Assembly: GCA_030068145.1 (NCBI GenBank)
Contig: JAPJBO010001121.1
Location: 1 to 64,000, forward strand
Direction of reading: 5' to 3'
Length of the DNA: 64,000 bases
DNA from: Diplonema papillatum
Lineage: Eukaryota > Euglenozoa > Diplonemea > Diplonemida > Diplonemidae
The translations under genes were made by a program, and so were the position numbers. The notes beneath the pieces are model-generated. The model was not told the DNA's origin. It did no database searches and was given only the letters and a program-made list of their open reading frames with translations. The first letter of the stretch is position 1, and each line of letters begins with the position of its first letter. Of this stretch, positions 720-21,600 are shown in pieces.

Positions 720-945
720 ATTGACCAATTTTTTTGACCAAAAGTTTTGACCGATTTTTCTTGAACAAATTTTTTGGCCAAAAATTTTTGACCAAAAACC
801 GACCTTCTAATCCACAAATAACGCCAAAAATTTTTGACCCAAAATCTTGACCAAAATATTTTGACCGATTTTTTTTGACCAAATTTTTTGGCCAATTTTT
901 TGACCAAAAAATTTTGACCAAAATTTTCGACCAAGTTTTCACCAG
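720..945. repeat. AT-rich degenerate repeat (TTTTTGACCAAAA)
   Basis: The motif TTTTTTGACCAAAA/TTTTTTGGCC recurs about ten times with small variations. Open frames on the minus strand here (Lys/Phe/Trp/Gly-rich) are low-complexity translations of the repeat and not genes. Confidence 0.7.
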
Positions 946-1019
946 GTGGCTATAAGCTAAAAAAAAAGTTTCAGGACCTCCTGGCTATAAGCTAAATAAA
1001 AAGTTTTTTGTGGCTATAA
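946..1019 (+). repeat. GGCTATAAGCTAAATAAAAAG tandem repeat, left part
   Basis: Short units of GGCTATAAGCTAAATAAAAAG occur here, again at 2500-2580, and near 3280-3330. The array is interrupted by the 1020-2499 element, so it gives the pre-insertion sequence of that element's target. Confidence 0.7.
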
Positions 1020-2499: not shown

Positions 2500-2595
2500 T
2501 AAGCTAAATAAAAAGTTTCTTGTGGCTATAAGCTAAATAAAAAGATTTGAAAGTGCTATAAGCTAATTAATAGCTATTTATTCACCGAGAGAAAA

Positions 2596-2684
2596 GTCGT
2601 TTTCTTGCACGAGGTTTTCCAGATTGCCACGAGAGCCCGCAGGGCTCGAGTGGCAATCTGGAAAACCGAGTGCAAGAAAACGAC
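2596..2684. repeat. Long perfect-type hairpin (about 43-bp arms)
   Basis: The sequence from GTCGTTTTCTTGCAC to GAGAGCCC is followed after a GCA spacer by its reverse complement, with only a few mismatches. It would fold into a strong stem-loop in DNA or RNA. Confidence 0.85.
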
Positions 2685-2703
2685 GTCTCGAGGTAAGAAG
2701 ATT

Positions 2704-3263
2704 GCTTTACTGCCGCATCACCTGACTTTTCTGCGTCCGAGAGAGCTACGCACAGGGTGTGGGAGACGCCGAAGGCCAAGAAAGATGGCGTGCCACACAC
2801 CAGCTACTGGCCAAGTTCCTGTCGTGTACAACAGCACAGTCGGCTCACACAGTGTACGCTGCACGTCAGCATCCCAAGTTTCCATGGCACTGGCGGTCTC
2901 CGACTCCTGCTCCGCATCCTGCAACGAATGAGCTGGTCCTGCCATTCGAATCATTCTTCCGTTCGCTCAGTAGTGTCAGATCATGCGCGTCAACCTTGTC
3001 CCTTGCTGTTCTTTGGCACTGTGACTTCCACAGGAATGCACCTGAATTGCCCACGAAGACACCGGATTGCCCACGAATGCACCTGTATTGCCCACAAAAG
3101 CACCTGGAAACCAAAACGGCTATGCGTGCAAGAAAAGTAGTTATGCGTGCAAGAAAAGTAGTTATGCGTGCAAGAAAAGTAGTTATGCGTGCAAGAAAAG
3201 TAGCTATGCGTGTAAGAAAAGTAGCTCTCAAGGATGCAGAAAAGTCAGGTGACAGGCAGTAAA
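2704..3263. repeat. Inverted repeat pair flanking a 21-bp array
   Basis: CACCTGACTTTTCTGC near 2719 recurs in inverted orientation near 3235-3250 with similar flanks (about 45-bp arms). Between the arms, near 3119-3225, lie five direct copies of a 21-bp unit (ATGCGTGCAAGAAAAGTAGT plus one base). With the adjacent hairpin at 2596-2684 this looks like a foldback element inserted in the GGCTATAAGC repeat. No gene is seen. Confidence 0.6.
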
Positions 3264-3498
3264 AAGTTTTACTTTAGGTGGCTATAAGCTAAATAAAAAG
3301 TTAGCAGGTGGCTATTAGATAAAAAGCCCTTCATTGTTTCTACTCAGGGCCACGGGTCTCGGCAAAAACTTGCCCGCGCGGTCTCTTCTATGGTCAACAA
3401 AACAGGAACACTTCCCCAATGCTGACTGAACCGGGCGGTTGGAGAGCCCAAGAGAACTGGCTTTCAGCTTAGGGACGGGGCTTCGGGGGCCTGGGAGT
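3264..3498. other. Intergenic, no gene seen
   Basis: Contains more copies of GGCTATAAGCTAAATAAAAAG near 3280-3320, then unique-looking sequence without a credible reading frame. Confidence 0.5.
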
Positions 3499-3910
3499 GG
3501 AAAACCTTTTAAGCGGACTGGCCTTTAGTGGCTTGGAAGCGGACCCGTTAAGGAATTGCCTTGGGGAGGTGATTTCGCCTTGTTTTCGCATTCTGCAGCC
3601 ATTATTTCAGCCTAAACGAGCGCCCGACCACTTTTCCCGCATTTCCGGAGCATTTTACGGCCACCTGAGTGGTTTCGAGTTTGGGTTTCTGGCGACGCCC
3701 AGTTTGGGGTTCTGATGTTTTTTCTTAAGGAATTGCCTGGGAATTGCCTTGGGGAGGTGGTTTTGCCTTGTTTTCGCATTCTGCAGCCATTATTTCAGCC
3801 CAAACGAGCGTCCGACCACTTTTCCCGCATTTCCGGTGCATTTTATGGCCACCTGAGTGGTAGGTTTCGAGTTTTGGGTTTCTGGCGACGCCCAGTTTGG
3901 GTTTCTGATG
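3499..3910 (+). repeat. Tandem pair of a dispersed ~185-bp repeat
   Basis: Two adjacent copies (about 3540-3715 and 3726-3910) share AAGGAATTGCCTTGGGGAGG, TGTTTTCGCATTCTGCAGCC and CATTTTACGGCCACCTGAG with few differences. A third copy lies inverted near 14650-14763. A (GT)n tract follows at 3908-3930. Confidence 0.8.
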
Positions 3911-6248
3911 TGTGTGTGTGTGTGTGTGTTTTCCCTTGAGGAATTGCCTTGTTGGGAAAAGGCCCGCAGGGGCTTCGAATTGGACTGAACCGGCCCACCC
4001 TCCTGCTGGAAGACTGCTGATAGACTGTGATCGATTCTGCTTTTCTGAGGTTAGAATACAGAATATCTGTAGCGATGGCCTGCATTCGTCACCAGGTGAC
4101 TACCTCTCGAGGTCTTCGATCGTACCGTGTCGTGCTGGCGTGTTCTTGCCTGTGATCGCCTATGATCGTTTGGGTTAGAATGCAAAGAATCTAGCGATAC
4201 TGTGCATCGCCGGCGTGACGCGTGATGTGTCATGCTTTCGCCTCTTCAGCTCGTCTTGATCGTCACGCCCAGGCGCGCGATTGGTGCTTCGCTTCTCGTT
4301 CCTACGATAGGCTGTGATAGACAACAGCAGGCAGTTCGATTTATAGGGGTGGACGGCTTAGTGGAATGTCCTTCAGGGCACACCGAGTCGGTTCTTCTTT
4401 GGAAGTCGAAGTCGGAAGTGGGTGGTGTCAAAGATCTGGTCTCAATCGTGGAAAGTGTGTACTTGGCAGCGGCTCACATCGCAGTGTTTGTATAAGGTCC
4501 GCTTTAGGGACCAGAACACAGCAGATAGGAGCCGATGCTGGGAGCACACCCATTTTCGAGCCGTTGCGGCTCGGGTTGCTGGTGCGTGGACTGAAAGACG
4601 AAACACAAAAGTAACTACAACGTGACACTTGGGGCATGTCCTTTCAAACGCATTTACTATTTTATTTTTACATAAGCGCCAACTTGGAAGAACCGAAGGG
4701 TTCCCATATTCTGCCACTACAATATGCGTTGAACGGTGAGTGACAGTTGTATGCACCTGGTTCACGGCTGAATGTGTGTACACATGCATCGTTGCACAAA
4801 CATAAGTACGAGAATAAGGCAGTAACGGCAAGGCTGTAGTCGAAGGTCACAGTGCAGACCTGAGCCGCCGTTCACCCGAACCGACCGACCGACGAAAGAA
4901 GGTCGAGAGGTATCCGGAATAACGTGTACGCATAAGTGTAGACTTGCACACAGACTACCATGCCTAGAATCTAGGACGGCGTGAGGTCATGCAGGTCTAC
5001 CCCTACACGACAAGCCGCTCGTGCACACGACAGGGAAAAAGGTCCTGAGTGAAAGAAAAAAAAAAAAGAAACACGCGGTGGTGTAAGCGAAGAACAAAAC
5101 ACGTGATTTGTCGGAAGAAGTGAGAAGCTCGTCGCCACGAACCGTGGCATTTTCACTTGTGTCCTGCAACTCGCCCAACGTAGAAATGATCAGCCACCGC
5201 GAAACAACACGAAGCGAAGTGAAGTTTTTGGAAGGGCATCTGTTTCGTAAGAACTACTCGAGAAGTCGGCCACTTGCAAACTGTAGCACAGGCCAGTGGG
5301 ATTCGTGTCGGGCGTCAGTGTTCATCGCGCAATACATCGAGTTTAGAATTTTGAATTGTTTATCCCCCTCAAGTCAACTCCGTCGAAACAAGCGCCAGGT
5401 GGCCTTCCGAGTATTGTGCCCAGGGCAGTAAGTGGGCTGCAAACGCGTTTGCACACGTCTGTTTTGAGTTGCAAACTGCAAACGTTTGCAGCGGAAACGA
5501 TGCAAAAGCGTTTGCAAACGGCGGACTAGGATGTCCTGTGCGCTAGCTGGGTACCGTCTGTTGTACTGAAGGGAAGGAGGGCGTTTGTGGAACAACGGCT
5601 GCACCACGGGCCATCAGGTCCGTCCCTTTCCCAAGGGATAGAGTTGCCTGGCGGGTGCCGTATTTCACGGTACAACACGGTCTTTCAAAGGCGGCGTCTG
5701 AGGGACGAAGCTCATTCCTAGTAGTACTGTTTTGTACTGAAGGGAACGTTTGTGGACCAACGGCTGCACACGAGAAGATTCTGAGCCAATTCACCCCCTA
5801 CCCAATCGAATGTTGTCGAGCCTTGTAGCTTGGGTTAGAATGCAAGGAATCTGTGGCGATGATCTGCATTGAGCCTTGTAGAACGTATTCGTTTGGGGTT
5901 AGGTTGCGAAGAACTGTCTGCATCACCGGCGTCGCGGAACGTAATCGAGTTTTCGTAGAGTGTAATCGCCGCGTAGTCGACTTAAGTCGCTTCATGGGAT
6001 GTAGGTGAATTGGCTCAAGATCCTTTTCCTTTTCATGCGAAACAAGATTTTTTCTTGTTTGATCTGATCACTCCTTTCGTATGAGTGCAAGACCTACGTC
6101 CGAAGACGTTCCCGTTGTGTTCTATTCTAATCCTCAAGCACTGGCGAACAGCTGGCGGAACCTTGCACGCGGGGGACCTCGTTTGCCTCGGTTCCCGGTG
6201 CAGCTTCCGCTTCCGCGGGGTCACGTGCCACACCTTGGGCTTGTTTCG
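3911..6248. repeat. Mosaic of dispersed repeat family B, no gene
   Basis: GGGTTAGAATGCAA(A/G)GAATCT motifs near 4050, 4172 and 5830 belong to a family whose inverted copy lies near 58275-58345. The stretch GTACTGAAGGGAA...AACGGCTGCAC occurs twice (5572-5605 and 5735-5772) and again inverted near 58380-58430. Open frames here are short, overlap on both strands and show no recognisable domain. Confidence 0.55.
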
Positions 6249-6600
6249 ATGTGTTCTCGGGAAAGGTCAGCGCGGTAGTGATGGCCACGAGAACACATAC
6301 ACAGGTGGGTGGGGAGAGGCCCTGGGACCGGTAAGGCGTGACTACCCCCGTCCCCGTCCCCTCCCAGGGAGCCACCCCGAATCCAGCCTGGCGCACCTGA
6401 CGGTGGAGGCCGACACCCTTTGACTTGTTGTTGATGCATTCTCGGGAAAGGTCAGCGCGGTAGCGATGACCACGAGAATCGCACATACAGGTAGCTGGGG
6501 AGAGGGCCTGGGACTGCTAAGACGTGACTACCCCGTCGCTGTCCCTCCCAGGGAGCTGCCCCGATTGTAGCCTGGCCCACCTGATACCACACCAATTGGC
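6249..6600 (+). repeat. Tandem duplication, ~180-bp units
   Basis: The units begin TTCTCGGGAAAGGTCAGCGC at about 6254 and 6440 and end in CTCCCAGGGAGC...GCCTGGC. A partial third member lies near 51837-51910, and CAGCGCGGTAGCGGTG occurs near 48357. Confidence 0.8.
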
Positions 6601-7180
6601 TTGCAGCTTCACTGGGTTGATTACAACGGGAGGAGGAACAGTCTCGTAGTTCAAGCATCTAGGAAGGGTGGCGTGATAAGTAACGTTCCCAGGGAGAAGA
6701 AGGTCAGGACAAGATCGGGCAAACTTTTTTTTATGTTGCACGTGCATTGTGTGCCGAAAGATCTTCATGTGCCAGACCAGCACTGCAATGTGGAAGGCGT
6801 TTGCAATCTGCCAAATCTCGTAATGCTAATCCAACACAACAAGCGTTCCCCCCGGGGAGCCTTCCCAGCAGCCGAACAATTCCAAGAGAGACTGAAGGCT
6901 GCTCTTACTTGCTCCTTTTGTTTCTCTGTATCTGCGGTAAACACCGTTGCTTCTTCCACTATTTAGTTCGTTCACGTGCTGCTTCCTTACATGTGTTGTT
7001 CTTCTGATCCCCTCACTTGCAAGAACGCCATAAACCGGGTAAAAACAGGGCAGCTGTAAACTGTGGACAGAAGAGCAGTCGTTGCGGAGAAGACGTATCT
7101 CCAGCAACCATCCTCTATGAAAGAATGCAGAGAGTTGAGGGTCGAGAAACAGTCTAAATTACTTCCGGACGAGCTACCAC
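6601..7180. other. Intergenic upstream of the Penelope-like element
   Basis: No gene recognised. A short palindrome CTACCACTAAGTGGTAG lies at about 7171-7187, close to the presumed 5' end of the retroelement. Confidence 0.4.
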
Positions 7181-7241
7181 TAAGTGGTAGTTAGTACAAG
7201 AAAGTTCGCGGGTGTCAAGTTCGCGGGTGAGAGGCTGAAGA

Positions 7242-7964
7242 ATGGTCGAAAGGGGTCGCCGTTTGCTTTATTTGAAAGATCTGACACAAAATTTTTGTTC
7301 ACCGCACCACCCTACCACCTCCAACACTCTGTCTTACACGAATCAAACTTTCACCCCCCACGACGATAGCTATATACCGCAGCCGCACCGCGTCGTAACC
7401 TTCGGCCAGTCATATGTCCAACCACCATGCTCTCTTAGTACCGTCGATGTGAGCCGCAACGACACCGGATACACGCCTCAACCCCTTAGATATCCCTATT
7501 CTACGACCTCCAACAGAACGCCTCAACGCACGACCCACACTGACAGTTTCGGCAGCCCGCATTCCAACACCACTGCTGCCCACTCCTCCTACGTCTGTCA
7601 TAGTACGAACCAAACACTCCAGAAGCAAGCTTTTAGCAACGAAACCACCGCGATACCTTTCGCGCGCTCTCACGTTCTCGAAGACTTCAGCAACGCACTT
7701 CCCTTGGCTGCGTCCACACCGACCGCGATAAACGGAATAGACAGACACACTCACACGTCCATTCTTCCACCGAGCCTCACTACTCTCGCAAGTATACGGA
7801 CAAATACTTTCACACCTTCAAACCTCCCGCAGGCGTCAGCTCTTCACGCACTTCCAGCAAACGGAACTTCGAACAATCTCGAACTACCGTTACCTACAAC
7901 ACAACCACAGCCACCTATACACTTCGCACCTCTTCGCAGTAATCCAAGCAAACCTCACTTTTAA
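7242..7964 (+). CDS. Pro/Thr/Ser-rich leader ORF of the retroelement
   Basis: A 240-residue open frame rich in Thr, Ser, Pro, Asn and His with no recognisable domain, probably disordered. It lies one frame away from the nuclease frame, which is open from 7741, so the two overlap by about 220 bases. Either this is a separate first ORF, or a frameshift near 7741-7964 split one long polyprotein. Base use (C/A-rich third positions) matches the downstream retroelement frames, which argues for real coding ancestry. The start is uncertain because ATG 7242 lies inside the segment that also occurs inverted at 15100-15180, the candidate terminal repeat. Confidence 0.4.
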   Translation: MVERGRRLLYLKDLTQNFCSPHHPTTSNTLSYTNQTFTPHDDSYIPQPHRVVTFGQSYVQPPCSLSTVDVSRNDTGYTPQPLRYPYSTTSNRTPQRTTHTDSFGSPHSNTTAAHSSYVCHSTNQTLQKQAFSNETTAIPFARSHVLEDFSNALPLAASTPTAINGIDRHTHTSILPPSLTTLASIRTNTFTPSNLPQASALHALPANGTSNNLELPLPTTQPQPPIHFAPLRSNPSKPHF

Positions 7965-9204
7965 ACCCCTGCGATCTGCACAGAACCTGCAGCACTCACA
8001 ATCCACCGACGCCACACAAGAAAATCACCGTCCGCCTATACACCTCACCGACGAGCATCTGAAGTATAAACTGAAACAAAATGCTATCGACACGCAAGAA
8101 GCCAACCGCCCGGAATTCAAGAAGAATCCGTTTCTTACTTGCTTTCGTACCAAAGCAAAGTATAACTACGGAAAGCAATTCTGGGCAACCTACGAGGCAA
8201 AGCGGCGTGACGCGCAAACTGTTTTCCACATAAAGCAGCACAAACAACTGCACGTAGGATGGAAACAGCAACAGGCCGATAAGCCGGCATACACCGAGCA
8301 AGGGGTGATATACGCCCTCATCGACGAGCGTGGCAACGTCAAATACGTTGGACAGACGAAAGGTACAGCGCTAGACCGGCTAAAGTCTCACTGGTACCAA
8401 CGGCGTAGCAACACACCCATCGCCAAAGCCCTCCTCAAATGTGACTTCCCACTCTACGCAGTTCCTTTGGCGAAGGTACCGATCGACGATCACGCCACCA
8501 GTGATGAATTCCGCCGACAAGCGCTACCCAGAGAGAATTGGTGGATCTCTCACTTCAATCCTACGTTCAATGTCCAACGACACGCCAAGACAACAGCAAC
8601 TTTGACGCGCCCGCGGAACAGTAGAAAACGTACGAACCAACCGCACTCACGTAGTAAGAAGACTCCGAAGACGACCACCTGGGCATGGATAGAGAACGGG
8701 AAGTTGCAAATCAACCTTACCAACGAAGCACGAGCCTTCTCTATACGAAGCCAACTTCACCACCTCCTCAACCTCAACGACGAAGACCTTCAACAGTACA
8801 ATTTTGACCTAATGGGACTTCAACGGATACGTCGCCTTTTAAACTGGCTCGTAGCACACGCACCCCGCACCGGGCTTCCACAAAATGTCCTAAAACTCGA
8901 AGAGCGTCTCAAAAACCGACTCGGAGAGATGACCTTACATAAGGTAGTCAAAGATGGTGGGGCCCCGGCAAGATTCATCGTCACACACGGCAGTGAACAC
9001 ATCGCCCAACTACATCTACACGACATCCTCCAGCTGCCAGCAGTCAAGCGTGCCTGCCCGAAAGATGAGATCCTACAGCGTACCAAGATTACCTACCGGC
9101 TTAATCCCCCGCTCTACCTACGACTACAAAACGTCACGCAGATCAGCAAGGAACTCCCTGACTTGCACCCCAACAAACCAGAGCAATGCCCGTGTCAAAA
9201 ATAA
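7741..9204 (+). CDS. GIY-YIG endonuclease region of the Penelope-like element
   Basis: The frame is open from 7741, has no ATG before the nuclease core, and ends at TAA 9202-9204. The core near 8302-8362 reads GVIYALIDERGNVKYVGQT, matching the GIY and YIG beta strands, followed by KGTALDRLKSHW. Near 8543 WISHFNPTFNV supplies the Asn/Glu-containing C-terminal part of the fold. In Penelope-like elements this nuclease makes the nick that primes target-primed reverse transcription. The upstream 110 residues (LKYKLKQNAIDTQE..., basic) are unassigned. After the TAA the same frame stays open straight into the RT, so the stop is probably a point mutation in a single ORF, or less likely a readthrough site. 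Confidence 0.8.
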   Translation, partial: TDTLTRPFFHRASLLSQVYGQILSHLQTSRRRQLFTHFQQTELRTISNYRYLQHNHSHLYTSHLFAVIQANLTFKPLRSAQNLQHSQSTDATQENHRPPIHLTDEHLKYKLKQNAIDTQEANRPEFKKNPFLTCFRTKAKYNYGKQFWATYEAKRRDAQTVFHIKQHKQLHVGWKQQQADKPAYTEQGVIYALIDERGNVKYVGQTKGTALDRLKSHWYQRRSNTPIAKALLKCDFPLYAVPLAKVPIDDHATSDEFRRQALPRENWWISHFNPTFNVQRHAKTTATLTRPRNSRKRTNQPHSRSKKTPKTTTWAWIENGKLQINLTNEARAFSIRSQLHHLLNLNDEDLQQYNFDLMGLQRIRRLLNWLVAHAPRTGLPQNVLKLEERLKNRLGEMTLHKVVKDGGAPARFIVTHGSEHIAQLHLHDILQLPAVKRACPKDEILQRTKITYRLNPPLYLRLQNVTQISKELPDLHPNKPEQCPCQK

Positions 9205-10142
9205 AATACAGGAAAAAGCATCCATGGGCACGCCATCGGCTTCCTCACGGATATCACGAGGGAAAAAGGACTGACGGAAATCGCGAAAAGAGGCAGGAAA
9301 TATCGATGCTACCAAAGTCACCATGCACTCGAGAAAAGCCTTCACGAAGCGATCGAAGAATATGTCCACAACAACTACCCTGAAGACAGCGACACACAAG
9401 CCTTCGAAAACGAGTTAAAAGACGAAGTCTCACGCAGAATGGCAGTACTACCACCTTCAGACGACGAGAAACTCGACGCGAAAGCTACAGCAGAGCTCAC
9501 AGCCATCAAGGAACAGCTGGTGATCCTCCCCATCGACAAAACAACTCACGACTTCGGATACTGCTGCAAAACGCAATACGTCCATGCACTACGGCAGCAG
9601 CTCGAAGCAAGCGAAACGTACGAACAGCAAGACCTTACGAAGAGCCAAGTCGAGAGCGAACACCGCCGATTGATGGCAGACATAGACCTCCCGTTTCACA
9701 AAGAGCTACCCCATCTATACGGGACGATAAAGCTACACAAAGCAGAACCGTCTTTACGATGGATAGCCGGCGTAGCCGCCGATAAAAAAGTCAAGCAAAC
9801 CAGAAGAGAGTCCCCTAAAGCGACCCTTACGAATGCCCATCTCGAGCTCTGGGGAATCCTCAAGGGTGTCATGCGAGCCCTAAAAAAGAAAGACGGCATC
9901 AACTTTCGCCGGACGGGAATAAAGCGGGTTTGGTTCACAGAAGGACCAGATGATGTTACGTTGCACATAAAGCAGAACCTCACCCGCCTACGTTACAAAA
10001 TACCCACCACACACGACTTCGTAGACATGTACACGAAAATCTCGCAAGAGAAAATCAGAGAAGAAGTCTGCGCAGCGATCGAGGAAGCATTTGAGTTCGA
10101 AGAAGCAGAAGGGAATCCTAATCTCACACGAGGAGCTAAACA
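9205..10142 (+). pseudogene. Reverse transcriptase, N-terminal part (fingers and motif A)
   Basis: The frame continues from the nuclease with one stop between them; the first ATG is at 9439. LVILPIDKT near 9520 and PHLYGTIKLHK near 9707 are the fingers motifs of Penelope-type RTs, with WIAG in place of the usual R-P-I stretch. DFVDMYTKI near 10017 is motif A with the first catalytic Asp. Around 10110-10143 the homologous frame shifts by one base. This frame then runs on only to a meaningless stop at 10227, while the continuation is in the next frame. The copy is therefore unlikely to make an active RT. Confidence 0.75.
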
Positions 10143-10445
10143 AAAAGGCAAAAGACGTTCGCCTTCACCCGCCAAACAAGTGACAAGACAAGAGGTTACA
10201 CGAAAGAGCAGATCAAAGAACTGCTAACTATGATCATCAACAACAGTTTCATAGCTCAGGGTGACAACGTCTACAGGCAGGTTGACGGCATTCCCATGGG
10301 AGGTAACGCGAGCTCTGACATCGCGAATCTGTTCTGTTACCGGATTGAAAAAGCCTACATTGACAGGCTCGTAGAAGAAGGCAAGATCGAAGAGGCGAAA
10401 GCACACGCGCATACGCTCCGCTTCATCGATGACTTCCTCAACTGA
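10143..10445 (+). pseudogene. Reverse transcriptase, palm motifs B and C
   Basis: In the shifted frame the sequence reads KEQIKELLTMIINNSF, then IPMGGNASSDIANLF (motif B) near 10285 and LRFIDDFLN (motif C, two catalytic Asp) ending at TGA 10443-10445. Beyond the TGA the same frame is open into DDVVFLGVRI near 10509, the usual RT strand after motif C, so the stop interrupts a once continuous RT. Confidence 0.78.
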
Positions 10446-12473
10446 GGAACGACACCTCCACCTCAACACCTTTACCATATGCGCTACAAGAACACCACAA
10501 CCGCACACGACGACGTCGTTTTTCTCGGAGTACGCATACGAGTAGAACGACCCGACCCACCCCATGCACCCCACATACGCCTTTCCATCCAGCCAAAAAA
10601 CTACGGAACACGCTACACCCACGAACTCTCCACAGCCCCCAAGTCGCAAGCCAGTGGAATTTTCAAAGGCGCTCTCATCAGAGCGATACGAAAGACCAAC
10701 CACTGGCAAGACTTGCGCGTGGAGATTCAAAGGAGCGTGTACTCCATGATCGAGAGAGGACACAACCCGCGTGTCCTGTATGCACCTTGGAATGCTTGGC
10801 TGACTGAAGAGTTCGCGAACCTGCCACGGCTTCTGAATCAACTCAAGCCGTTCCTCGGGTTCTCGATTGCCAGACGCAAAGCCGGAAAACAGCGTATCGA
10901 GTACGCAGGAAAACACAAACCGGCGAACTTCATCCCGTTAGACCTAGCCAGCGAACCGTCTTCCCGCAACTCGCAGCCCTTGCAACCGCCTAGACCGCTT
11001 TCAGTCGCCGAACGAGTTACAAGTATCGTCGCACCAATCACCGTCGCCGCAGCAATCGCCGCCTTCGCCGCCAAAAGAATAACTACCAGAACAAGGAACC
11101 CCAAGACCACGATGCGGCAAACCCTGTCAGCTGTAAATACATGCTATTTACAAGCGGTACTTAACGTGATCTCGGCCACCAACCTCGCCGAACAGATATC
11201 GAAATATGTCACATGTGCAGCACACGGAACAGGGGAATGCACTTTGGCTGCGTACGACTGGACACAGCGGATAAGAACACCGGACACCGTCGTTAGACTG
11301 CACCAGAACCTAAAACATCCCTTCGAAGCGGGCCAACAACACGACTTTGAGGAAGCAATGAGGGTGGTAATCGCGTCAATCGTAGACGAAAACGCAGCAC
11401 ACACGTGCTGTCAACCAGGCGAGTCTGACAACTTCGACGCCATACGACACTGGTACTCGACGACAACACGTTGTGCCAAATGTAAGCACAACAACACGAA
11501 CGGTCACTGGAACGACGTGGCTGTCATCGCCCCTGTTGCAAGCACGGTACAAGGATGCCTGGACTTCCACTGTGCCCCACACAAACCGGACACGTACAGA
11601 TGCGAGTGCGGAACCTCCAATAAGACGACCATGCAACACGGCATCAGCAGGATACAAGGAAGCCTCGTTCTACGCATAACACGTAACCAGCACACAAGGG
11701 AGAATCGCCAAGCGGTTGCAGCTGACCAAACGCTGCAGGTGCCTAACCAGGCACAACCGCTGAGGCTCAGAGCAGTTGTTGCCCACGCAGGACGAGACAA
11801 CGCGGGACACTACACTGTACACGTGTTAAACGATACCCCATACAATGACGCAAGATGGACACACTTCGACAACGCCAACGTCACGCATTCAGCCAATCGC
11901 GGCTACACCGACCAGAGTACGAATGTACTCTTCTATACGTTTGACCCAACAGAACCTGTACACGAACCGGTTCCCTGCCACCTCGACGACGACGCAATGA
12001 CAAACTCAACACCGCACACCGCACTTCAGACCCCAACGCGCACGGGGAACGAAACCGCACAACGCAGCTCTCAATCCACCACCGACGTCCCATCATCCGA
12101 CAAGAGCAGCGGCACTGCCACGCCAACCCAACAAATTCTCGAAGAAATGCGTGGCCTAGAGCCTACTCCGGGCCACACGCCCGACACGGAGGCACTCCAA
12201 TGTCCGAACTGCCACACACGAACGACGAAAACTGGCACTGCAATAAAAGGCATCCACGGCCTGAGCATCCACCTGCGTTTTTGCAAGAAGAAACTACGAC
12301 GCACACCACCACGCCACAGCACCACGCCTGCAAGCTCAGCAGGCAAAAGGGAGATTTGCCCGTACTGTCACAGCGACGGACAGACACCGAACAAACCACA
12401 ATTCACAAGCCTACGACACCACAAACCGTGGTGCAAAACTAAACACCGCAAACCAGGAGCTACGACCAGATAA
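10446..12473 (+). CDS. RT thumb fused to a USP-like deubiquitinase and two zinc fingers
   Basis: An uninterrupted 664-residue frame from ATG 10479 (open from 10446). Residues 1-140 are the RT thumb (KGALIRAIRKTNHW...). Residues 212-487 match peptidase family C19 (USP). The Cys box is NTCYLQAVLN with the catalytic Cys at residue 222 (codon 11142). Then come GQQHDFEEAM, a CAKC...CEC zinc ribbon, and the His box AGHYTVHVL with His 444 (codon 11808) followed by WTHFDNANV and VLFYTFDP. All catalytic positions look intact; the third is Asp or Asn in FDNAN. The C-terminal fingers are CPNCH...HLRFC (from residue 575) and CPYCH...HHKPWC (from residue 627), a nucleic-acid-binding style seen in retroelements. 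The likely role is removing ubiquitin from the element's own protein or from chromatin; that is inference. Confidence 0.82.
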   Translation, partial: GTTPPPQHLYHMRYKNTTTAHDDVVFLGVRIRVERPDPPHAPHIRLSIQPKNYGTRYTHELSTAPKSQASGIFKGALIRAIRKTNHWQDLRVEIQRSVYSMIERGHNPRVLYAPWNAWLTEEFANLPRLLNQLKPFLGFSIARRKAGKQRIEYAGKHKPANFIPLDLASEPSSRNSQPLQPPRPLSVAERVTSIVAPITVAAAIAAFAAKRITTRTRNPKTTMRQTLSAVNTCYLQAVLNVISATNLAEQISKYVTCAAHGTGECTLAAYDWTQRIRTPDTVVRLHQNLKHPFEAGQQHDFEEAMRVVIASIVDENAAHTCCQPGESDNFDAIRHWYSTTTRCAKCKHNNTNGHWNDVAVIAPVASTVQGCLDFHCAPHKPDTYRCECGTSNKTTMQHGISRIQGSLVLRITRNQHTRENRQAVAADQTLQVPNQAQPLRLRAVVAHAGRDNAGHYTVHVLNDTPYNDARWTHFDNANVTHSANRGYTDQSTNVLFYTFDPTEPVHEPVPCHLDDDAMTNSTPHTALQTPTRTGNETAQRSSQSTTDVPSSDKSSGTATPTQQILEEMRGLEPTPGHTPDTEALQCPNCHTRTTKTGTAIKGIHGLSIHLRFCKKKLRRTPPRHSTTPASSAGKREICPYCHSDGQTPNKPQFTSLRHHKPWCKTKHRKPGATTR

Positions 12474-13103
12474 CCAGCCACGATGCCAGAGTGCATTCAG
12501 AGTACCTTAACTGCGGAGGACAACAAGCAGTCGCCACTTACTCAAGAAAGAATTTTTTTTTTAGCAGCAAACAGTTCACACATAAACTACAGCTAGGTCT
12601 ACAACCAGTTGCTGAGTTTTCACCACTACTACTACACCTGCTGTTGCCAAACCTTCTCTTTCTACTACCCGACCCTCCCCACCGCACGTCCTCCCCAACC
12701 TAAAAGAAAGTAAGAACGCATATTACAGACCGATACGAGCTGCATGGCAACCCCTGCTCAACATGCATGCGCGTGGGGGGCCCAAGGCTAAATTCAAAGC
12801 GAATTTCTTCTTGGTGTCGGTCGCAACACTTACAAACATGGCTAGCCGTAGTTAAAGTGTATAAGCATACCTACTACCCTCATACCACCCGCCTCACAGC
12901 CTCAATGGTCAACCGGAGACCCTAAAACACCGAACCTCTAAACCACAATAAACGCTACAAAACTTTGAAAATGCGTCCTTTATCGGGCAGAAATCGTGCT
13001 CCGAGCTCTCAACGGAAACCCTGAGGTTTGCCATGGAGCCCCACCTTTTCCATTGGTGGTGGTTAACCTGCTAACATGTAAGCAAACGAACGGTACTCCG
13101 TAC
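12474..13103 (+). other. 3' flank of the retroelement, no gene
   Basis: Poor in stops on one strand but without a recognisable product. GGTCAACCGGAGACCCTAAA near 12909 is a member of a dispersed motif found about ten times in the window. GGGCAGAAATCGTGCTCCG near 12985 recurs inverted near 15075, which suggests repeated material around the element's 3' end. Confidence 0.45.
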
Positions 13104-13248
13104 GGTAAGGTAAGCACGTGGGTGCACAGCATGCGCGCACTCCCTGCTCCAGGTAAGGTAAGCACGTGGGTGCGCAGCCCGCGCGCACTCCCTGCTCCAG
13201 GCAAGGTAAGCGTGTGCGTGCGCAGCATGCGCGCACTCTCGCTCCAGG
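13104..13248 (+). repeat. 48-bp tandem repeat, 3 copies
   Basis: GGTAAGGTAAGCACGTGGGT starts at 13104 and 13152, and a diverged copy at 13200. Each unit ends in GCGCGCACTCCCTGCTCCA. Confidence 0.85.
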
Positions 13249-13256
13249 CCAGGTGA

Positions 13257-13302
13257 AGCCCGTAGGGCTTCCACCCGCGGGCGGGTGGAAGCCCTACGGG
13301 CT
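13257..13302. repeat. Perfect 22-bp-arm palindrome
   Basis: AGCCCGTAGGGCTTCCACCC followed by GC, a two-base centre, and the exact reverse complement. It is a strong GC-rich hairpin in either strand, positioned directly after the 48-bp array. Confidence 0.9.
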
Positions 13303-14246
13303 AATGCTGCGCGCGCTGGGCGCGCGCACAGCGCAAGCGTGCACTCAGTGCGCGCTTTCGGCGGCTCTCTCGCTCCGCTCCTTCACCTCCTCGCACACCG
13401 GGCTATCCACAGGTACAGCGGGTGCTGCAGGGTGCTGTAGGGTATAGGCATACAGCCCATCTACCGGTGTATGCTGGTGGTACCGTGGATCCCTGCTGGT
13501 GGCATCCCTGCTGACCCCTGTATACCTTGGTCCTACCCCCCGATATCACCTGCCCCGGATCTGACCCCTCTGTATGCGCGCGCGCGTAGGCCGCAGACAC
13601 AAGCGTTTCTTGGTCCGCGGTCCTGGGATCTGGGGTCTGGGAGCTGGATCCCGGGTATGGGGCCATATTGGGCCCTGTATTGGGACCTATACACACCACG
13701 TAGCAGTGCACTACATACCACCACCACTACACGGTTGATCCCGTATAGAGGGGATACAGTATGCTGTAGTGCATACCACAGTGTACGTAGGTGGTGCATA
13801 CCTGCTCCACAGGTGGTCCCAATACCGGTACCATGAGTAGTCAGCGAGTGACTAGCCACCTGAGTACCTCAGGACCATAATGGGGTCACCTATACACAAA
13901 GTATGCACTCGCTGTGGAGTGCGTATGTATACACCACCTACACCGTATGATGGATGTATACAGTACCTACGTGGTATGTGGTGGTGTACAGCGGGTGCAT
14001 TCCCTGTGCATATACCCCGTATACCCCCATATCCTGCTACCCAGCTCCTGACCCATGCCACCCCCGATCTGACCCCCCCCGATATCGACCCCAGCAGGTT
14101 GGTATATATATACTACGCGCGCGCGCGTAGGCCGCAGAAACATGCACAAATTGACGTCGCGATGTGCCAAACGACGAGTCTTGCTGACCGTGTCCCGGAG
14201 TTGTGGACGATCCGAATAGGTCCAGACGTCTCAACCATAAACCCCA
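13303..14246. repeat. Composite repeat DNA, no gene
   Basis: GCGCGCGCGTAGGCCGCAGA occurs at about 13579 and 14117. Between them is sequence full of short palindromes (GTAGTGCATACCAC, TGGTGGTGTA types), similar in texture to 38640-38830 and 62840-62960. GCACAAATTGACGTCGCGAT at about 14147 recurs at about 14949. No credible coding frame. Confidence 0.55.
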
Positions 14247-14465
14247 GTGAAGGAGCAATGATTAAGATTTGAACGCATCTCCAACTCTTACCACTCATCG
14301 GTTTCAGGGACTTTTAACCCTCTTTTCAAAGTTCTTTGCATCTTTCCATCACTGTACTTGTTCGCTATCGGCCTCCGGGAGATATTTAGCCTTAGCAGAG
14401 GGATACCTGCCGATTAGCTCAGCATTCCCAAACTGAGCGACTCGTGCTCGGTTGCAACCGCAAAG
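14247..14465 (-). pseudogene. 28S rRNA fragment (D1 end region)
   Basis: Read on the minus strand it contains TTTGGGAATGC, then AAGGCTAAATAT, GATAGCGAACAAGTACAG, GGAAAGATGCAAAGAACTTT and GAAAAGAGGGTTAAAAG, the conserved 28S stretch just before domain D2. Only about 200 bases are present and the flanks are repeats, so this is a relic and not a working rDNA unit. A second fragment of the same 28S stretch is at 49654-49820. Confidence 0.8.
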
Positions 14466-14925
14466 GGAACCCAAAAACAATCGGAAACCCCAGGAAAGTT
14501 TGATCCACATTGGTGTGGGTTCATAAAATGCCTGCAAAATGTGTCGCCAAACCGCCGGGACCCTGAAAGGACCCTGAAAGACCCCTGTTTTTTGAAAGAA
14601 AGGGGGGCCCCCAGCAGCTCAAAACCAGGATCCTACCACTTGGGTGGTCCTAAAATGCTCGGGAAATTCAAAATAACTGGTCGGATGCTCGTTTAGGCTG
14701 AAATAATGGCTGCAGAACGCGAAAACAAGACAGGATCACCTCCCGCAAGGCAATTCCTTAAGGCATTCGCTGTTTGCACCGAAAGTGCCGTCGTCCTCCG
14801 TTTCCCCTGGCATCGATCGGGTCAGCAAAAACAGACGAACGCAGGAACACCGTTCGCAAAGGGAAGGCAGTAGGCGCGATGATGAGATGATGTGCCGGGG
14901 TCCGTACGGGGTAAACCTGCTAACA
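14466..14925. repeat. Inverted copy of the 3.5-kb dispersed repeat and flank
   Basis: Positions about 14650-14763 are the reverse complement of the repeat at 3540-3680 (shared CCTAAACGAGC, CAGCCATTATTTCAGCC, AAGGAATTGCCTT in plus sense there). The rest shows no gene. GCATTTGCTGTTTGCACCGA-like sequence near 14763 recurs near 15306. Confidence 0.6.
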
Positions 14926-15212
14926 TGTCGGCAAAACGCAAACACCTGCACAAATTGACGTCGCGATGTGCCAAGTCAACCATTCGTTTGTTGTGTTCAC
15001 CACTTAAGGACGAAGGGGGAGGGAGGGTTAATTTTGGGAAAAGGAGGGGCTCAGGTATGTACGTTGAGAGCCCGGAGCACGATTTCTGCCCGGAAGGACG
15101 GATTTCAAAGATCTGTGTCAGATCTTCCAATAAAGCAAACGGCGACCACTTTCGACCATTATTTTGGCCTCTCACCTAACAAAGAGTCTTTACTGACCGT
15201 GTTCCGCAGTTG
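14926..15212 (-). repeat. Repeat interrupted by an inverted fragment of the retroelement 5' region
   Basis: GCACAAATTGACGTCGCGAT (14949) and CTGACCGTGTTCCGCAGTTG (15190) flank an extra ~200 bp that is absent from the related copy at 14147-14206. The insert at about 15100-15180, read on the minus strand, matches 7225-7305 (GTGAGAGGC...AATGGTCGAAAG...GGTCGCCGTTTGCTTTAT). It is a second copy of the Penelope-like element's presumed terminal repeat. Confidence 0.6.
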
Positions 15213-15638
15213 TGTCACAGCTTCAGCCGGTGGTCGGACTCAAGGACTTGACGCATGGCGTGTTGATGCTATTCGTTGGTGAAATCCAAAACCTCGCGGT
15301 TACAAGGCATTTGCTGTTTGCACCGAAAGTGCCGTCGTCCTCCGTTTCCCCTCAGCAAAACCAGGCGAACGACGGAACACGGCGGATACCAGACCTCCCG
15401 GCATCAAGAGCCTAAGGCTGGAAAATCACAGGAAGCATGTCCGCAAAGGGAAGGCAGCAGCAACCAGTTAACCGCCCTTTGCGGCACATGAGAGGCCTCA
15501 CAGGACCTTAAACCAAGTGTGCCGACGGCTTAAACCGACTCAGACCGTTCCACTGAATAGCCTTGCCCAACTAGACGTTCCTTTACAACCAGGTTAACGC
15601 ATCAGAAATCGACATTCAATTTACTCCCGGGGGGCGAC
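15213..15638. other. Upstream region of the astacin gene
   Basis: No gene. It contains a second copy of TTGCTGTTTGCACCGAAAGT (about 15309, first near 14771). The last 70 bases before ATG 15639 hold no clear TATA box or initiator. Confidence 0.4.
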
Positions 15639-18600
15639 ATGCTGCGTTTTTGTCTCGCGCTGGTGATTTTTAGCGCCGCCGGAGGCCGCGAGGTGACGGC
15701 AGGTGCGGACACGGCGAATGCCATCGAGGAGCCGAAGGTGTTCGCTCGGCATGCCAACCCACTGGTAGGCAGCGCCCCGAGATCGGTGCTCTGGGGCAAC
15801 TACAAGGTGATCCACTACGTCATCAGCACGAATGTGTCGAGCCCAGACTCTGTATACCCGTACCTTCCCGAGAACGACGCACGTGTCCTCACGGCCGTTG
15901 CGGACTGGGAGGCGAAGACCTGCTTCAAACTCACGAGGTGCCCCACTGAAGCCGATTGCCCGCAGCCGTACATGCTTTTCACAGGAAATGCTGGCTGCTC
16001 CTCCAATATTGGGAATCCACAGCATGGAGTCAGCATGATCAGCCTCGACCTCGGCTGCCCTGGTATGTAAATTGACTCACCAAAAATTCAGTTTGACAGG
16101 GAAGGAAGATACCCATTAGTTACTGCCGTTGTCAAAATCATGCCTCATCCGCTCCGGTAGCTAGCTTTTCGAACTGCGCCGACGTCGTTGTTTCCGGTGC
16201 GTGCGGTCTCTCGTTAATTCACCCTCGCACGCCCGCCTTCCCTCGCTGGCATGCCTCCCTTCGGTTTCGTGCGCGGCAACGCACTCCTCCGCCGTTCTGC
16301 TGCAGGCAATGGCAGTGTCCTCCAGGGTGTCGTGTTGGGTGAAGTCGGTGCTGGTACTTGCTGCCTTCTGCCCGCCGCCTGTGGTGGTGAGTGTGTGGCC
16401 TTCAAAACCGCGGGGTCGAGGTGGATACATTGGACCGAGATAAGAACCAACGCTGGCAATGGCAGCGGTGTGTGGATGAAACAGGTCAATCGAGTGATAG
16501 CACACGACTTCAAGTCGGTGCTGGTACTTGCCGCCTTCTGCCCGCCGCCTGTTGTGGTGAGTGTGTGGCCTTCAAAACTGTTCAAAACTGCGGGGTCGAG
16601 GTGGATACATTGGACCGAGATAAGAACCAACGCTGGCAATGACAGCGGTGTGTGGATGAAACAGGGCAATCAAGTGATAGCACACGACTTCAAGTCGGTG
16701 GTTATCAAGCCAGTTGAATTCCTCTTCTTCGTAACAGTTCCGAGCTGACACTTCATTGCGGGCACAACATGCAAGAAGGCCTGGAAGAAATCAGGAGCCG
16801 CGGGTAGCACCCGAGAGCGCCACACACAGCACCTTCAATCTGAGCCCGACCTAAACCCGCACTGACAATCCCGCGTGTGTCCTCAGGGCCAATCCTTTTT
16901 TTATTAAGGTTACCGTGTTTGTAGCTGCCGAGCCTTTTTTTTTAGGGGCACAGCGATCGCCGCGATCGCCACCGGTTTCGTCTCACTCTGCCGCAGTCCA
17001 TCCTGTTCTCCCGACCTGTCGGGACGTGCGACCTACAATACACCCTCACAGTGGCCGCAGCGATCCACGAGATCGGGCACAGCATGGGGCTGTACCACGA
17101 GGAACAAAGGCGCGACAGAGACAACTACATACGCATAGACTACGACGAGCTCCCGGCGCATGTCAAAGCCGCATACGAGATTCACGGGGTCGACCGCAAC
17201 ATCGGAGTGTACGACCACGCCAGCATCATGCACACTAGCAAAGATGTCAATACTCGTCGTGGCTTGCCGTCCATCGTGACGACGGAGGTCATCGGAAAGC
17301 ACGACAAAGGCTTATCCGAAGGTGACGTTGCTACCATTGATTACCTATACAACGGGTGTTCCAACACGTATGCTGCGCCCAGGTGCATTACGAATGCGTC
17401 GGCCGTTCTCTTAATTCCTCATTCGAAGGCTTTTGTGGTCGAGTTCAATGCGGACTGGAACATCGATTCATCGATGACGATCAGCTACGGGGACACCAAC
17501 GCCTCGGGTGCTTCCTTCCACACCGCGCCGGGGACGAATGTTGGCTACAGCGGGATGACGTACATCACGTTGAACCCGTCATCCACCGACGCAGGCAGCA
17601 CGTTCGTGTTGGCGGCCACGTTCACTTCGACAGGTGCCGGTGCTGAGTCGAGCACGTGCCAAGTTGAGGTAACAGTCGCAACAGGGACCCGCGTATGCTT
17701 CGGAATCTCGTCAGAGGACGAGTCTGTCTGCGGTGGTGGTGGTGGTGCGTGCGCAGTCGACTCGGGGACACCCTGCTGGTGCACCGGAAAACACACCGGG
17801 AAACAATGTGAACAGCCTCCGACTTGCACGCCTTCAGATGACAACACTTCGCCTCCTTGCTATGAGTACCTGATGCATGGCAGCTTGACTCGTCCCACGT
17901 GGAAAGATCTGACGGGCGGAGGTCTGATGTTGACAGTCAGCATCGCAGGTGGGGATAACTGGGTTGATTCGGAGGCAACGAAACAAGCTTTCATCGACGG
18001 TCTGACAGCTGACGAGGCCTCTCCTTCGTCTACTGGATGGAATGCTTTGAAGTCGACGATGCTGAGCACGTCTTTGGTGAGCATTTCGGGATCGAAGTTG
18101 ACCCTCGGTCCGTTGGCGGCGGCAACGTCGTTCTTGACATCAACTTCGACGGTTGTCTCGTTGACTCTGGATGCCAGCATAGTGGTCAGTGGCACCCTGG
18201 GTGTTGGCAGCACTGATTTGTTCTTTGTCATTCCGGCGACTTGGACGTGCCCTGCGTACCCAGAGCTGACGTTTGATAGCGATTCAGCTGCATTCCCCTT
18301 CTCTGTTGTTGACACGTCCTTCAGCGTGAAGGGTGGAGGGTCGGCGTACTTCGCCGCTGCTACTGAGAAAGAAAAGAGCAGCGTTTTCTCGCCGAGGCGC
18401 GCCAAGTACACGAGCATCTCTTACTACATTGCCAGGAGCGATTCTGTCAACGCCGACAATCTTCCCGTCGTCGACATTCGCGACCACTTCTTTAGATCAT
18501 GCTGGAAGATGAACGTCGAACCAACAAGGCTGGTTTTTGCTTCGGATGGCGAAACCTTTTTCTACATGCCTTTCGAGGCAAAGCGCTTTTACTTCGTGGA

Positions 18601-21600
18601 GCACCTGATCGACTACTTTACTGGTATGATGACAGTTCGTGTGGAGGGCCGTGTCGTACTTGAGAACTTCGCGAGCAGAAAGGATTCCCCTTGTATCAGT
18701 GACGGCGTCGGTCGCATCGTCTTTGGAAAGCAAGGTTGGCTCGACGAATTCGAGATGGTGCTGCCCTGTACACGGTATGCAATGACAGGCACGCTGACAT
18801 CTCCGGTTCACAGAACTCTGGCTGATGGGGGTCTGGTGCTAACCGTCAGCATCAAAGAGGACCTGGACGTGTGGGTTGACACAGAGGCAACCAAGCAAGC
18901 TTTTATTGACGGCCTGGTTGCAGACAGTTCCTCTACGGCGCTGACTGGGTGGAACGCGCTGAAGTCGACGATGATGGACACGTCGTTGGTTACCATTTCG
19001 GGATCGAAAATGACGCTTGGTCCTTTGAATCCAGCGGTTTCGTTTTTCCAGGAAACTTTCACGGTTGTCTCCTTGACCCTGAAGGCTAGCATGGTGGCCA
19101 AGGGGACACTGGGTGAAGCTGACCGTGATATGTCCTTCTTCGTTCCCTCGTCTTTGCCGTGCCCTGTGTACCCAAAGCTGTCGTTCGATAGTTACTCGGG
19201 TGCCTTTCCCGACTCTATAGTTGACACGTCCTTCCGTGCGGAAGGCGAAGGGTCCGCGTACTTCGCTGCTGCGCGTTCAGCGGAGAGCGTTTTTACGCCT
19301 GTTCGCGATATGTACACATCCATCTCTTACTACATAGCTATGAACAACACCGGTTCTCTTCCCAGCATTGACTTTGCTGACAGCAGCTTCGTATCTTGCT
19401 GGAAGATGAACATCCAACCAACGAGGCTCGACTTCACTTCAGATACCATTTCATCCGTCGACATGCTTTTCAAGGAGAATCGGTTTTACTTCGTGGAGCA
19501 CCTGATCCACTACTCGACTGGTATGATGACAGTACGTGTGGACGGACAGGTCAAGCTAGAGCACTTCACGAGTAGAAGCGAATCCCGCTGCATCAGTGAC
19601 GGCATCGGTCGCGTTGTCTTCTGGAATCAAGGTTGGCTAGACGAATTCAAGATGCACGGACCCTGTTCATTGTACGAAATGACAGGCACACTGACGTCTC
19701 CCGTTCACAGGAGTCTAGCTGATGGGGGTCTGACCTTAACTCTCAGCATCAAAGAGGACCTGGACAAGTGGATTGACACAGGGGCAACCAAGCAAGCTCT
19801 CATTGACGGCTTGGTTGCAGACAGTTCCTCTACGGCGCTGACTGGGTGGAACGCGCTGAAGTCGACGATGATGGACACGTCGTTGGTTACCATTTCGGGA
19901 TCGAAAATGACGCTCGGTCCTTTGTATCCGGCACCTTCATATTTCGAAAGGTCTTCCACGGTTGTCTCCTTGACTCTGAAGGCTAGCATGGTGGCCAGGG
20001 GGACACTTGGTGATTCTGACGGTGATATGTCCTTCTTCGTTCCCTCATCTTCGCCGTGCCCTGCGGACCCACAGCTGTCGTTCGATAGCGACTCGAGTGC
20101 CTTTCCCGACTCTTTAGTTGACACGTCTTTCAGCGCAGAGGGCGAAGGGTCGGCGTACTTTGCTGCTGTGCGTTCAGCGTATAGCGTTTTTTCGCCTGTT
20201 CGCGATATGTACACATCCATCTCTTACTACATAGCTATGAACAACACCGGTTCTCTTCCCAGCATTGACTTTGTTGAAAGCAGCCTCGTATCATGCTGGA
20301 AGATGAACATCCAATCAACGAGGCTGGACTTCGCTTCGGATACCGTTTCCTCCGTTGACATGCTTTTCGAGGAGAATCGGTTTTACTTTGTGGAGCACCT
20401 GATCGACTACTCGACTGGTCTGATGACAGTTCGTGTGGACGGACAGGTCGTGCTTGAGAACTTCGCGAGCAGGAGCGAATCCCGCTGCATCAGTGACGGC
20501 ATCGGTCGCGTTGTCTTCTGGAATCAAGGTTGGCTAGACGAAATCAAGATGCAGAGACCCTGTTCCTTGTACGACATGACAGGCACGCTCACGTCTCCCG
20601 TTGACAGGAATCTAGCTGAAGGGGGTCTGATGCTAACTATCAGCATCAAAGAGAACCTGGACGTGTGGATCAACACAGAAGCAACCAAGCAAGCTTTTAT
20701 TGACGGCCTAGTTGCAGACAGTTCCTCTACGGCGCTGACTGGGTGGAATGCGCTGAAGTCGACGATGATGGACACGTCGTTGGTTACCATTTCGGGATCG
20801 AAAATGACGCTCGGTCCTCTGAACCCTGCATCTTCATATTTCGAGAGATCTTCCACGGTTGTCTCCTTGACTCTGAGGGCTAGCATGGTGGCCAAGGGAA
20901 CAGTGGGTGATGCTGACGGTGAAATGTCTTTCCTCGTTCCCGCGTCTTCGCCGTGCCCTGAGAACGTAGAGCTGTCGTTTGATAGTTCTTCCGATGCATT
21001 CCCCAACTCTGTAGTTGACAAGTCTTTCAGAGCTGAAGGCGCGGGGTCGGCGTACTTTGCTGCTGTGCAGTCACCATATAGCATCTTCTCTCCGGTGAGC
21101 GATAATTATACGTCCATGTCTTACTACATTGCTCGGAGCGACAGCGGCTCTCTGCCCAACATCGATGTTCTCGACACCAGCATGCAATCATGCTGCAAGA
21201 TGAACTTCCAGCCAACGAGGATCGACTTCACTTTGGATACCGTTTCTTCCGTTGACGTGCTTTTCGAGGAAAATCGGTTTTACTTCATGGAGCACCTGAT
21301 CGACTACTCGACTGGGTTGATGACAGTTCGTGTGGACGGACAGGTCGTGCTTGAGAACTTCGCGAGCAAAAGCGAATCCCGCTGCATCAGTGACGGCATC
21401 GGTCACGTTGCAATCTGGAATGAAGGTTGGCTCGACGAATTCAAGATGCAGAGACCCTGTTCCTTGTACGAAATGACGGGCACGCTAACATCTCCCGTTC
21501 ACAGGAATCTAGCTGATGGGGGTCTGATGTTATCTATCAGCATCAAAAAGGACCTGGACCTGTGGATCGACACAGAGGCTACCAAGCAAGCTTTTCTTGA

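Follow-up and report, generated by a model that had tools for sequence, protein, structure and literature searches.

Does a retroelement of the diplonemid Diplonema papillatum encode a ubiquitin-specific protease (USP), and what might such an enzyme do there? The question is raised by a stretch of 64,000 nucleotides, here called the window (contig JAPJBO010001121.1 of assembly GCA_030068145.1, positions 1 to 64,000 of the forward strand), in which one open frame of 675 amino acids extends from 10446 to 12470, with its stop codon at 12471-12473. An initial annotation, made from the letters of the sequence, had described this frame as a USP domain built into a Penelope-like element (PLE), downstream of a reverse transcriptase (RT) interrupted by stops. 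The segment 10446-12473 belongs to a broken PLE, of which it forms the 3' part, and relatives of this element combine a GIY-YIG endonuclease, an RT, a USP and two zinc fingers in one protein, an architecture of which we are practically certain. The N-terminal GIY-YIG endonuclease and the existence of unbroken relatives in the same genome had not been part of the initial annotation.

A ubiquitin-specific protease in the frame of a Penelope-like element

Compared with Pfam, the window frame matches the UCH profile PF00443 over residues 230-497 with E=3.5e-16 and 60 bits (cut-off 23.9), which bears out the assignment to peptidase family C19 made in the initial annotation. The window copy represents family A of the repeat families described below, and the USPs of families B, C, D and F score 52.8, 45, 41.8 and 86.9 bits, respectively, against the same cut-off. 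A search of the Protein Data Bank (PDB) with the window USP retrieves 37 sequences up to E 0.01, with USP7 at the top (3.4e-4), 6tbm_Q second (8.5e-4) and yeast Ubp8, 4fip, at 0.009; we take 6tbm_Q and 4fip to be SAGA deubiquitinases. For the USP of family F the best PDB match has an E value of 8.4e-12.

The catalytic Cys and His are invariant across four aligned families, and the third residue of the triad is Asp or Asn. Cys and His had first been given as residues 222 and 444, numbers that run from the first Met; by frame count they are Cys233 and His455, since our numbering starts at the first residue of the frame and the first Met is residue 12. The CxxC...CxC zinc ribbon and the two C-terminal zinc fingers that had been pointed out are present in the window frame as well, and the zinc-finger region has no Pfam match above cut-off in the window or in the scanned frames of the other families. 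In families A-D the GLxNLG part of the Cys box is lost, including the Asn at -5; family F keeps the whole Cys box, GLPNLGNTCF. The position of the oxyanion Asn is not a defining one for membership among the USPs, and the domain of the element is, as judged from profile and triad, a member of peptidase family C19.

Unbroken relatives in the host genome

The host assembly searched comprises 271.4 Mb in 2910 contigs, and the diplonemid spliced leader occurs in it 602 times (321 + 281) and 0 times when read backwards, which marks the host as a diplonemid. Genome searches were scored for their best candidates, i.e., 139 of 648 for the window USP, 87 of 608 for the RT, 149 of 935 for UCH and 136 of 669 for the USP of family F. 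The search for more copies with RT and USP, which the initial annotation had proposed, yields many copies belonging to at least eight families.

With the window USP as query, the places scored belong to family A, to family B (40-41% identical) and to family C with its neighbours (37-40%), further forms being C84 (64% identical) and C588 (56%), and 134 of the 139 places are without inner stops. An unbroken frame of family B (C42, 2210 amino acids) contains in succession GIY-YIG at residue 858, CAC at 1151, RT motif B at 1520, the Cys box of the USP at 1798 and zinc fingers at 2112 and 2162. The same domain order is encountered in an unbroken frame of family C (C187, 2762 amino acids), with GIY-YIG at 1346, CAC at 1639 and RT motif B at 2010, so that a PLE endowed with a USP, as first proposed for the window, can be read in frames of families B and C without any interruption. 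The longest frames of family A seen are broken or 5'-truncated and comprise 1027-1135 amino acids. Pfam matches in family B (2147 of 2210 amino acids scanned) are UCH with 52.8 and GIY-YIG with 27.0 bits, both above their cut-offs, and another measurement gave 29.8-32.0 bits for the latter (cut-off 22.6). In family C (2177 of 2762 amino acids scanned) UCH scores 45.0 bits and GIY-YIG 17.2 bits, which is below cut-off, and the scanned parts of the B and C frames contain one GIY-YIG match each. RVT_1 matches on the RTs of the element are weak (12-18 bits, below cut-off), and no PDB sequence was matched up to E 1 in a phmmer search with the element RT. The combination of a PLE-type RT with a GIY-YIG endonuclease is recognised from the GIY-YIG score over cut-off in family B and from the order of the RT motifs.

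Among the 87 RT places scored, 13 are situated in frames of exactly 2210 amino acids, and a USP place lies at most 3 kb downstream in 67. Five of the other 20 were read, and all five continue into a USP, one of them being cut short before the His box; three of these five (C233, C618, and C1222) constitute family D.

The UCH search reveals 34 places at 87-206 bits, most of which we read as USP genes of the host, and in addition large repeated classes whose frames reach 1562 and 1585 amino acids. These same two frame classes are matched when the genome is searched for GIY-YIG (best 150 of 225 candidates). In the two further classes thus defined, F and G, UCH is encoded downstream on the same strand, at a distance of 2897-3045 bp, in 32 of 37 GIY-YIG places, and GIY-YIG and UCH have an identical frame length in 28 of the 37 copies; this pairing compares the 37 matches at 27.9 bits or less (of 150) with 53 of the 149 UCH matches. 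An RVT_1 search of the genome, whose best 150 of 4330 candidates contain only better-scoring RTs, has none in frames of 1562 or 1585 amino acids.

The USP of family F, represented by 861 bases of C981, is about 24% identical to that of family A and presents RQHDAHEAL, a CxxC...CxC ribbon, SGHF and WTLFDDE besides its complete Cys box. When used as query it finds family F itself, forms at 77%, family H at 60% in frames of up to 1590 amino acids, and family G at 58-59% in frames of 1585 amino acids and near, and 134 of the 136 places are without inner stops. Compared by eye, the places found with the window USP and those found with the USP of family F have none in common and thus add up to 275 USP places, with some of these being fragments of a single copy. 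At least eight USP repeat families exist (A, B, C, D, C84, F, G, and H), plus minor forms. In seven of them (A, B, C, D, C84, F, and G) RT and/or GIY-YIG has been read or mapped together with the USP, and what links family H to the element is its frame length.

Repeated classes with a GIY-YIG are also found in long frames of 1448, 1513, 1544, 1457, and 609 amino acids, which are probably further PLE families.

Selection on the protease domain

The initial annotation had suggested a dN/dS comparison across copies, and Nei-Gojobori counts give an omega of 0.09-0.27 in pairs of USPs. The set consists of 12 of 16 USP sequences, C9, C1431, C1250, and E831 being dropped for a missing motif, and pairs with fewer than 8 changes are omitted. 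As dS is saturated between A, B, and C, weight is placed on the pairs C-C620, C-C52, D233-D1222, A42-window copy, and C-D. For the USPs of C and C620, 23 synonymous and 7 non-synonymous changes correspond to an omega of 0.09 (p 2e-9 in a Fisher test on rounded site counts). Omega is 0.12 for C and C52, 0.15 for C and D (dS 1.2), 0.27 for D233 and D1222 (16 and 15 changes) and 0.24, on 13 changes, for A42 and the window copy. For the RT palm of C and C620 it amounts to 0.04. By these counts the USP is under constraint, if a looser one than the RT, and it is apparently under purifying selection where changes are countable, mainly in families C and D.

Probable exchange of the protease cassette

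Between families A and B, identity is 80% for the endonuclease, 81% for the RT palm and 87% for the thumb, but drops to 42% for the USP and 43% for the zinc fingers; the USP of family A is nearest to that of C84 (65%). In a tree of the thumb (144 columns) the group A+B is starred and A+C84 is rejected by the approximately unbiased (AU) test (p 0.020). In a tree of the USP (274 columns) it is A+B that is rejected (AU p 0.0225; 0.0035 with family F included, in a tree that leaves the mutual arrangement of A, B, and C84 open). Because the groups were named after a first tree had been seen and family B is on a long branch, this conflict is good, not final, evidence. In L044 (C744) the RT, USP and zinc fingers of a family C element are followed directly, within one frame of 1457 amino acids, by a USP and zinc fingers of the family B type; this double-USP chimera probably arose by template switching. 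Also, F and H USPs in C97 have a common frame length of 1459, twice. The conflict between the thumb and USP trees, together with the in-frame chimera, suggests that the USP has probably been passed between families as a cassette.

Ends and insertion sites

Copies of family A end exactly with ...AATAAACGCT, followed by 20 distinct junctions with A at bases 3, 4, and 5 in 19, 20, and 19 cases, respectively (counted in the fetched loci plus the window with a tolerance of one mismatch; the C18 join mentioned below is included among the 20). The terminal block is absent in 5 of 28 entries with the end of the open reading frame (ORF), some of these entries being the same copy twice. The 5' limits differ among copies, and (A/G)AAA is the only preference seen at insertion sites. 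An exact 3' end, A-rich junctions and varied 5' limits form the pattern to which target-primed insertion at short A tracts gives rise.

Directly upstream of a 5'-truncated copy in C18 lie about 19 bp that belong to the 3' terminus, and the sequence further upstream is without element match. Head-to-tail joins are known from PLEs, and the C18 arrangement is a weak hint of such joins. No hammerhead is among the Rfam matches listed, 30 for L031, L032, and L042, of which 28 are sub-threshold microRNA models, and 5 for window positions 1-20000. A family A copy (L007), to judge by eye from its 3' flank, seems to be nested in a C84-like copy, within the end that encodes the zinc fingers.

Relation to known elements and proteases

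With GIY-YIG before the RT and CxC between them, as encountered in families B and C, the element belongs by its domain order among the PLEs that carry an N-terminal GIY-YIG, and nearest to Chlamys. Elements of this kind, Naiad and Chlamys, are said to have been treated by Craig and colleagues in 2021, and they have the same order GIY-YIG - CxC - RT. Further points in common are the single GIY-YIG match in each scanned frame of B and C and the lack of a hammerhead match in three loci and window positions 1-20000. The endonuclease of Chlamys is not known to have CCHH fingers, and by eye none are seen in that of the present element. Unlike Chlamys and Naiad, the diplonemid element continues beyond the RT into a USP and two zinc fingers, has an N terminus of 850-1340 amino acids, and has a diplonemid as host. 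Chlamys has been reported from Ectocarpus, and the part of that report available to us mentions no USP-like domain. The Terminons of rotifers, giant PLEs, also have enzymes added to them, but they are described as endonuclease-deficient and telomeric, and their additions comprise an exonuclease, an esterase, Rep and others, a USP being unmentioned in the accessible part of the source (PMC6431247).

With eukaryotic USPs such as USP7, USP12/46, and Ubp8, the domain of the element shares the triad, the zinc ribbon and the profile match, and it differs from them in being part of a retroelement, in the trimmed Cys box of families A-D, and in its distance from solved USPs. Cysteine proteases of the ubiquitin or SUMO type joined to replication enzymes have precedents, as OTU domains occur in some long interspersed nuclear elements and Helitrons (the Helitron Helinoto) and Ulp domains in NeSL, but these are other folds in other element classes than a USP-bearing PLE. 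Viruses carry deubiquitinases too. Viral contigs contained no relatives of the RT or the USP (139 and 50 pattern matches, none confirmed).

We found no report of a USP in a PLE in the literature covered, which did not extend to Craig et al. (2021), where a mention is possible. In the main text of the genome paper of D. papillatum, "Penelope" and "ubiquitin" have 0 occurrences (PMC10161547). A USP joined to a telomerase-related RT is likewise absent from the literature searched, and the finding places PLEs in diplonemids.

Possible functions of the protease

The initial annotation had suggested two roles, protection of the element's protein and action on ubiquitinated histones, both of which are still hypothetical. 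In the explanation that we favour, with modest confidence, the USP acts in cis and shields the endonuclease-RT/RNA complex of the element. The element protein would be made as one chain, and since this chain joins the USP to the RT, the enzyme should act first on the protein/RNA complex of the element itself. Ubiquitin would be stripped in cis from this complex or from associated host factors. The ribonucleoprotein (RNP) would thereby escape the proteasome and restriction by way of ubiquitin until target-primed reverse transcription has taken place, with the zinc fingers keeping the deubiquitinase at the nucleic acid. We infer catalytic activity, substrate, action in cis and the role of the fingers from sequence. 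A USP apparently under selection on the copying protein suggests that such elements need to fight or to use the ubiquitin system of the cell.

Several points weigh against this explanation. The oxyanion Asn of GLxNxGNTC is replaced by Ser or Thr in families A-D, and therefore catalysis may be weak in these. The omega of the USP is above that of the RT (0.09 versus 0.04 for C-C620), and the USP diverges faster than the RT (A-B identity of 42% versus 81%). The selection counts that carry weight come from families A, C, and D; five of the 20 RT places without a listed USP are among those read; and the claim of a USP covers the named families rather than all PLEs of the genome, the GIY-YIG classes with frames of 1448, 1513, 1544, 1457, and 609 amino acids being left out.

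Alternatively, the USP, guided to DNA by the zinc fingers and the endonuclease, might edit chromatin or repair factors at the target, removing ubiquitin from H2A/H2B or from repair proteins and in this way letting cleavage and reverse transcription run to completion. The zinc fingers, which adjoin the USP in the five families whose linker was read, would fit this function, as would the insertion beside (A/G)AAA tracts, which shows target contact, and the presumed SAGA deubiquitinases among the PDB matches of the window USP. However, USP7 ranks first among those matches and all of them are weak, and we consider an action on chromatin unlikely, if worth keeping in mind. It seems still less likely that the USP has lost most or all of its catalysis and now serves as a structural or ubiquitin-binding domain. 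The trimmed Cys box of families A-D, with the loss of the Asn at -5, is what one might expect of such a domain, but Cys, His, and Asp/Asn are retained in the aligned families, and omega is 0.09-0.15 within and between C and D, both of which are without that Asn (D233-D1222 being higher, as given above).

There is little probability that the USP is the processing protease of the element, cutting a polyprotein, for example, at the (M/L/I)RG motif between USP and zinc fingers. This motif recalls the LRGG end of ubiquitin and is kept in five of five linkers read, in which the sequence is otherwise variable; also, the frames are long (up to 2762 amino acids) and no other protease was recognised in the parts scanned. 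On the other hand, USPs as known need folded ubiquitin and not a peptide, the site is RGD, RGL, or RGH rather than RGG, and the same appearance would result from a short helix or an interaction motif. That a host USP gene was captured just once, or that the assembly is in error, as the broken state of the window copy might suggest, has a negligible probability, because several families with RTs down to about 57% identity (A-C) have the USP at the same place.

The single-capture scenario, which together with the absence of a profile match had been named at the outset as fatal to the idea of a USP-bearing PLE, was rejected on the 275 USP places in several families, and the profile match is present. 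Two other candidates were rejected as well: a translation artefact, in view of unbroken frames of up to 2762 amino acids, and an unrelated overlapping ORF, as the USP is in the RT frame in A, B, and C and has, by its coordinates, the frame length of GIY-YIG in F and G.

We also put forward tentatively that in diplonemids an entire PLE superfamily may have made a catalytic deubiquitinase an obligate component of its retrotransposition protein and may swap the cassette among its families as the ubiquitin-dependent restriction by the host changes, a possibility that we would not yet call probable. Cassette exchange and fast change would fit such an arms race. D. papillatum is reported to be open to gene replacement (PMC10161547), and it still has near-identical long frames (13 of 87 RT places are in frames of exactly 2210 amino acids). 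It would therefore be possible to ask there directly whether retroelements are restricted by ubiquitin, and whether the role of the enzyme is to protect the RNP or to edit chromatin where the element inserts.

Layout of the window copy and its surroundings

The element of the window has the order GIY-YIG, CxC motif, RT, thumb, USP, and two zinc fingers (Table 1). Its decay is evident from in-frame stops at 9202-9204, 10225-10227, and 10443-10445, in agreement with the stops that had been noticed in the RT, and from an additional frame change near 10.15 kb. Window positions 7942-10155 are 75% identical to residues 741-1475 of family B, and in tblastn family B matches the window from 7942 onward only. 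Preceding GIY-YIG are about 850 amino acids in family B and 1340 in family C, rich in Pro/Ser/Thr-type sequence. The GIY-YIG match of the window copy (PF01541) is just below the cut-off of 22.6 bits, and that of its RT with RVT_1 reaches 18.3 bits (cut-off 29.6). The names of the RT motifs and their PLE type are our assumption, and for the CxC motif we assume the meaning that it has in the Naiad/Chlamys literature.

Table 1. Features of the Penelope-like element in the window (positions in the 64,000-nucleotide stretch).
Feature	Position	Strand	Basis
Pro/Ser/Thr-rich N-terminal region, decayed frame	7239..7961	+	ORF list; by-eye comparison with families B and C
GIY-YIG stretch (GVIYALIDERGNVKYVGQT from 8302, RENWWISHF at 8530)	7942..9204	+	PF01541 21.9 bits; TAA 9202-9204
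CxC motif (CPC) between endonuclease and RT	9187..9195	+	
RT (LYGTIKLHK; motif A, HDFVDMYT; motif B, GIPMGGNASSDIAN; FIDDFL)	9217..10445	+	77% and 83% identity, in two pieces, to family B RT
RT thumb	10446..10937	+	Family A copy L042 87% identical to B, 73% to C
USP domain (peptidase C19, UCH)	11133..11948	+	PF00443 E=3.5e-16; PDB matches
Catalytic Cys233	11142..11144	+	Invariant in four-family alignment
Catalytic His455	11808..11810	+	Invariant in four-family alignment
Third triad residue Asp475 (Asn in family B)	11868..11870	+	Four-family alignment
Zinc ribbon of USP fingers, CxxC...CxC	11472..11609	+	
Conserved short motif EEMRGLE in otherwise variable linker	12141..12161	+	By-eye comparison of linkers of five families
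Two C-terminal zinc fingers (CPNC...HLRFC; CPYC...HHKPWC)	12201..12434	+	Starts at 12201 and 12357
3' untranslated region and 3' terminus (AATAAACGCT)	12474..12956	+	3' end shared among copies

Outside the element, an open frame of 2985 amino acids (16946-25900, + strand) contains HEIGHSMGLYHEEQ, which we take to resemble the motif of astacin-type metallopeptidases. A dispersed repeat occupies positions 1-915 and matches the flanking sequence of a family C copy (L035) in three pieces, at 87-99% identity. A fragment of large subunit rRNA (RF02543, 106 bits) is located at 14241-14526 on the - strand, and it resembles the scattered 28S pieces that are reported for D. papillatum (PMC10161547).

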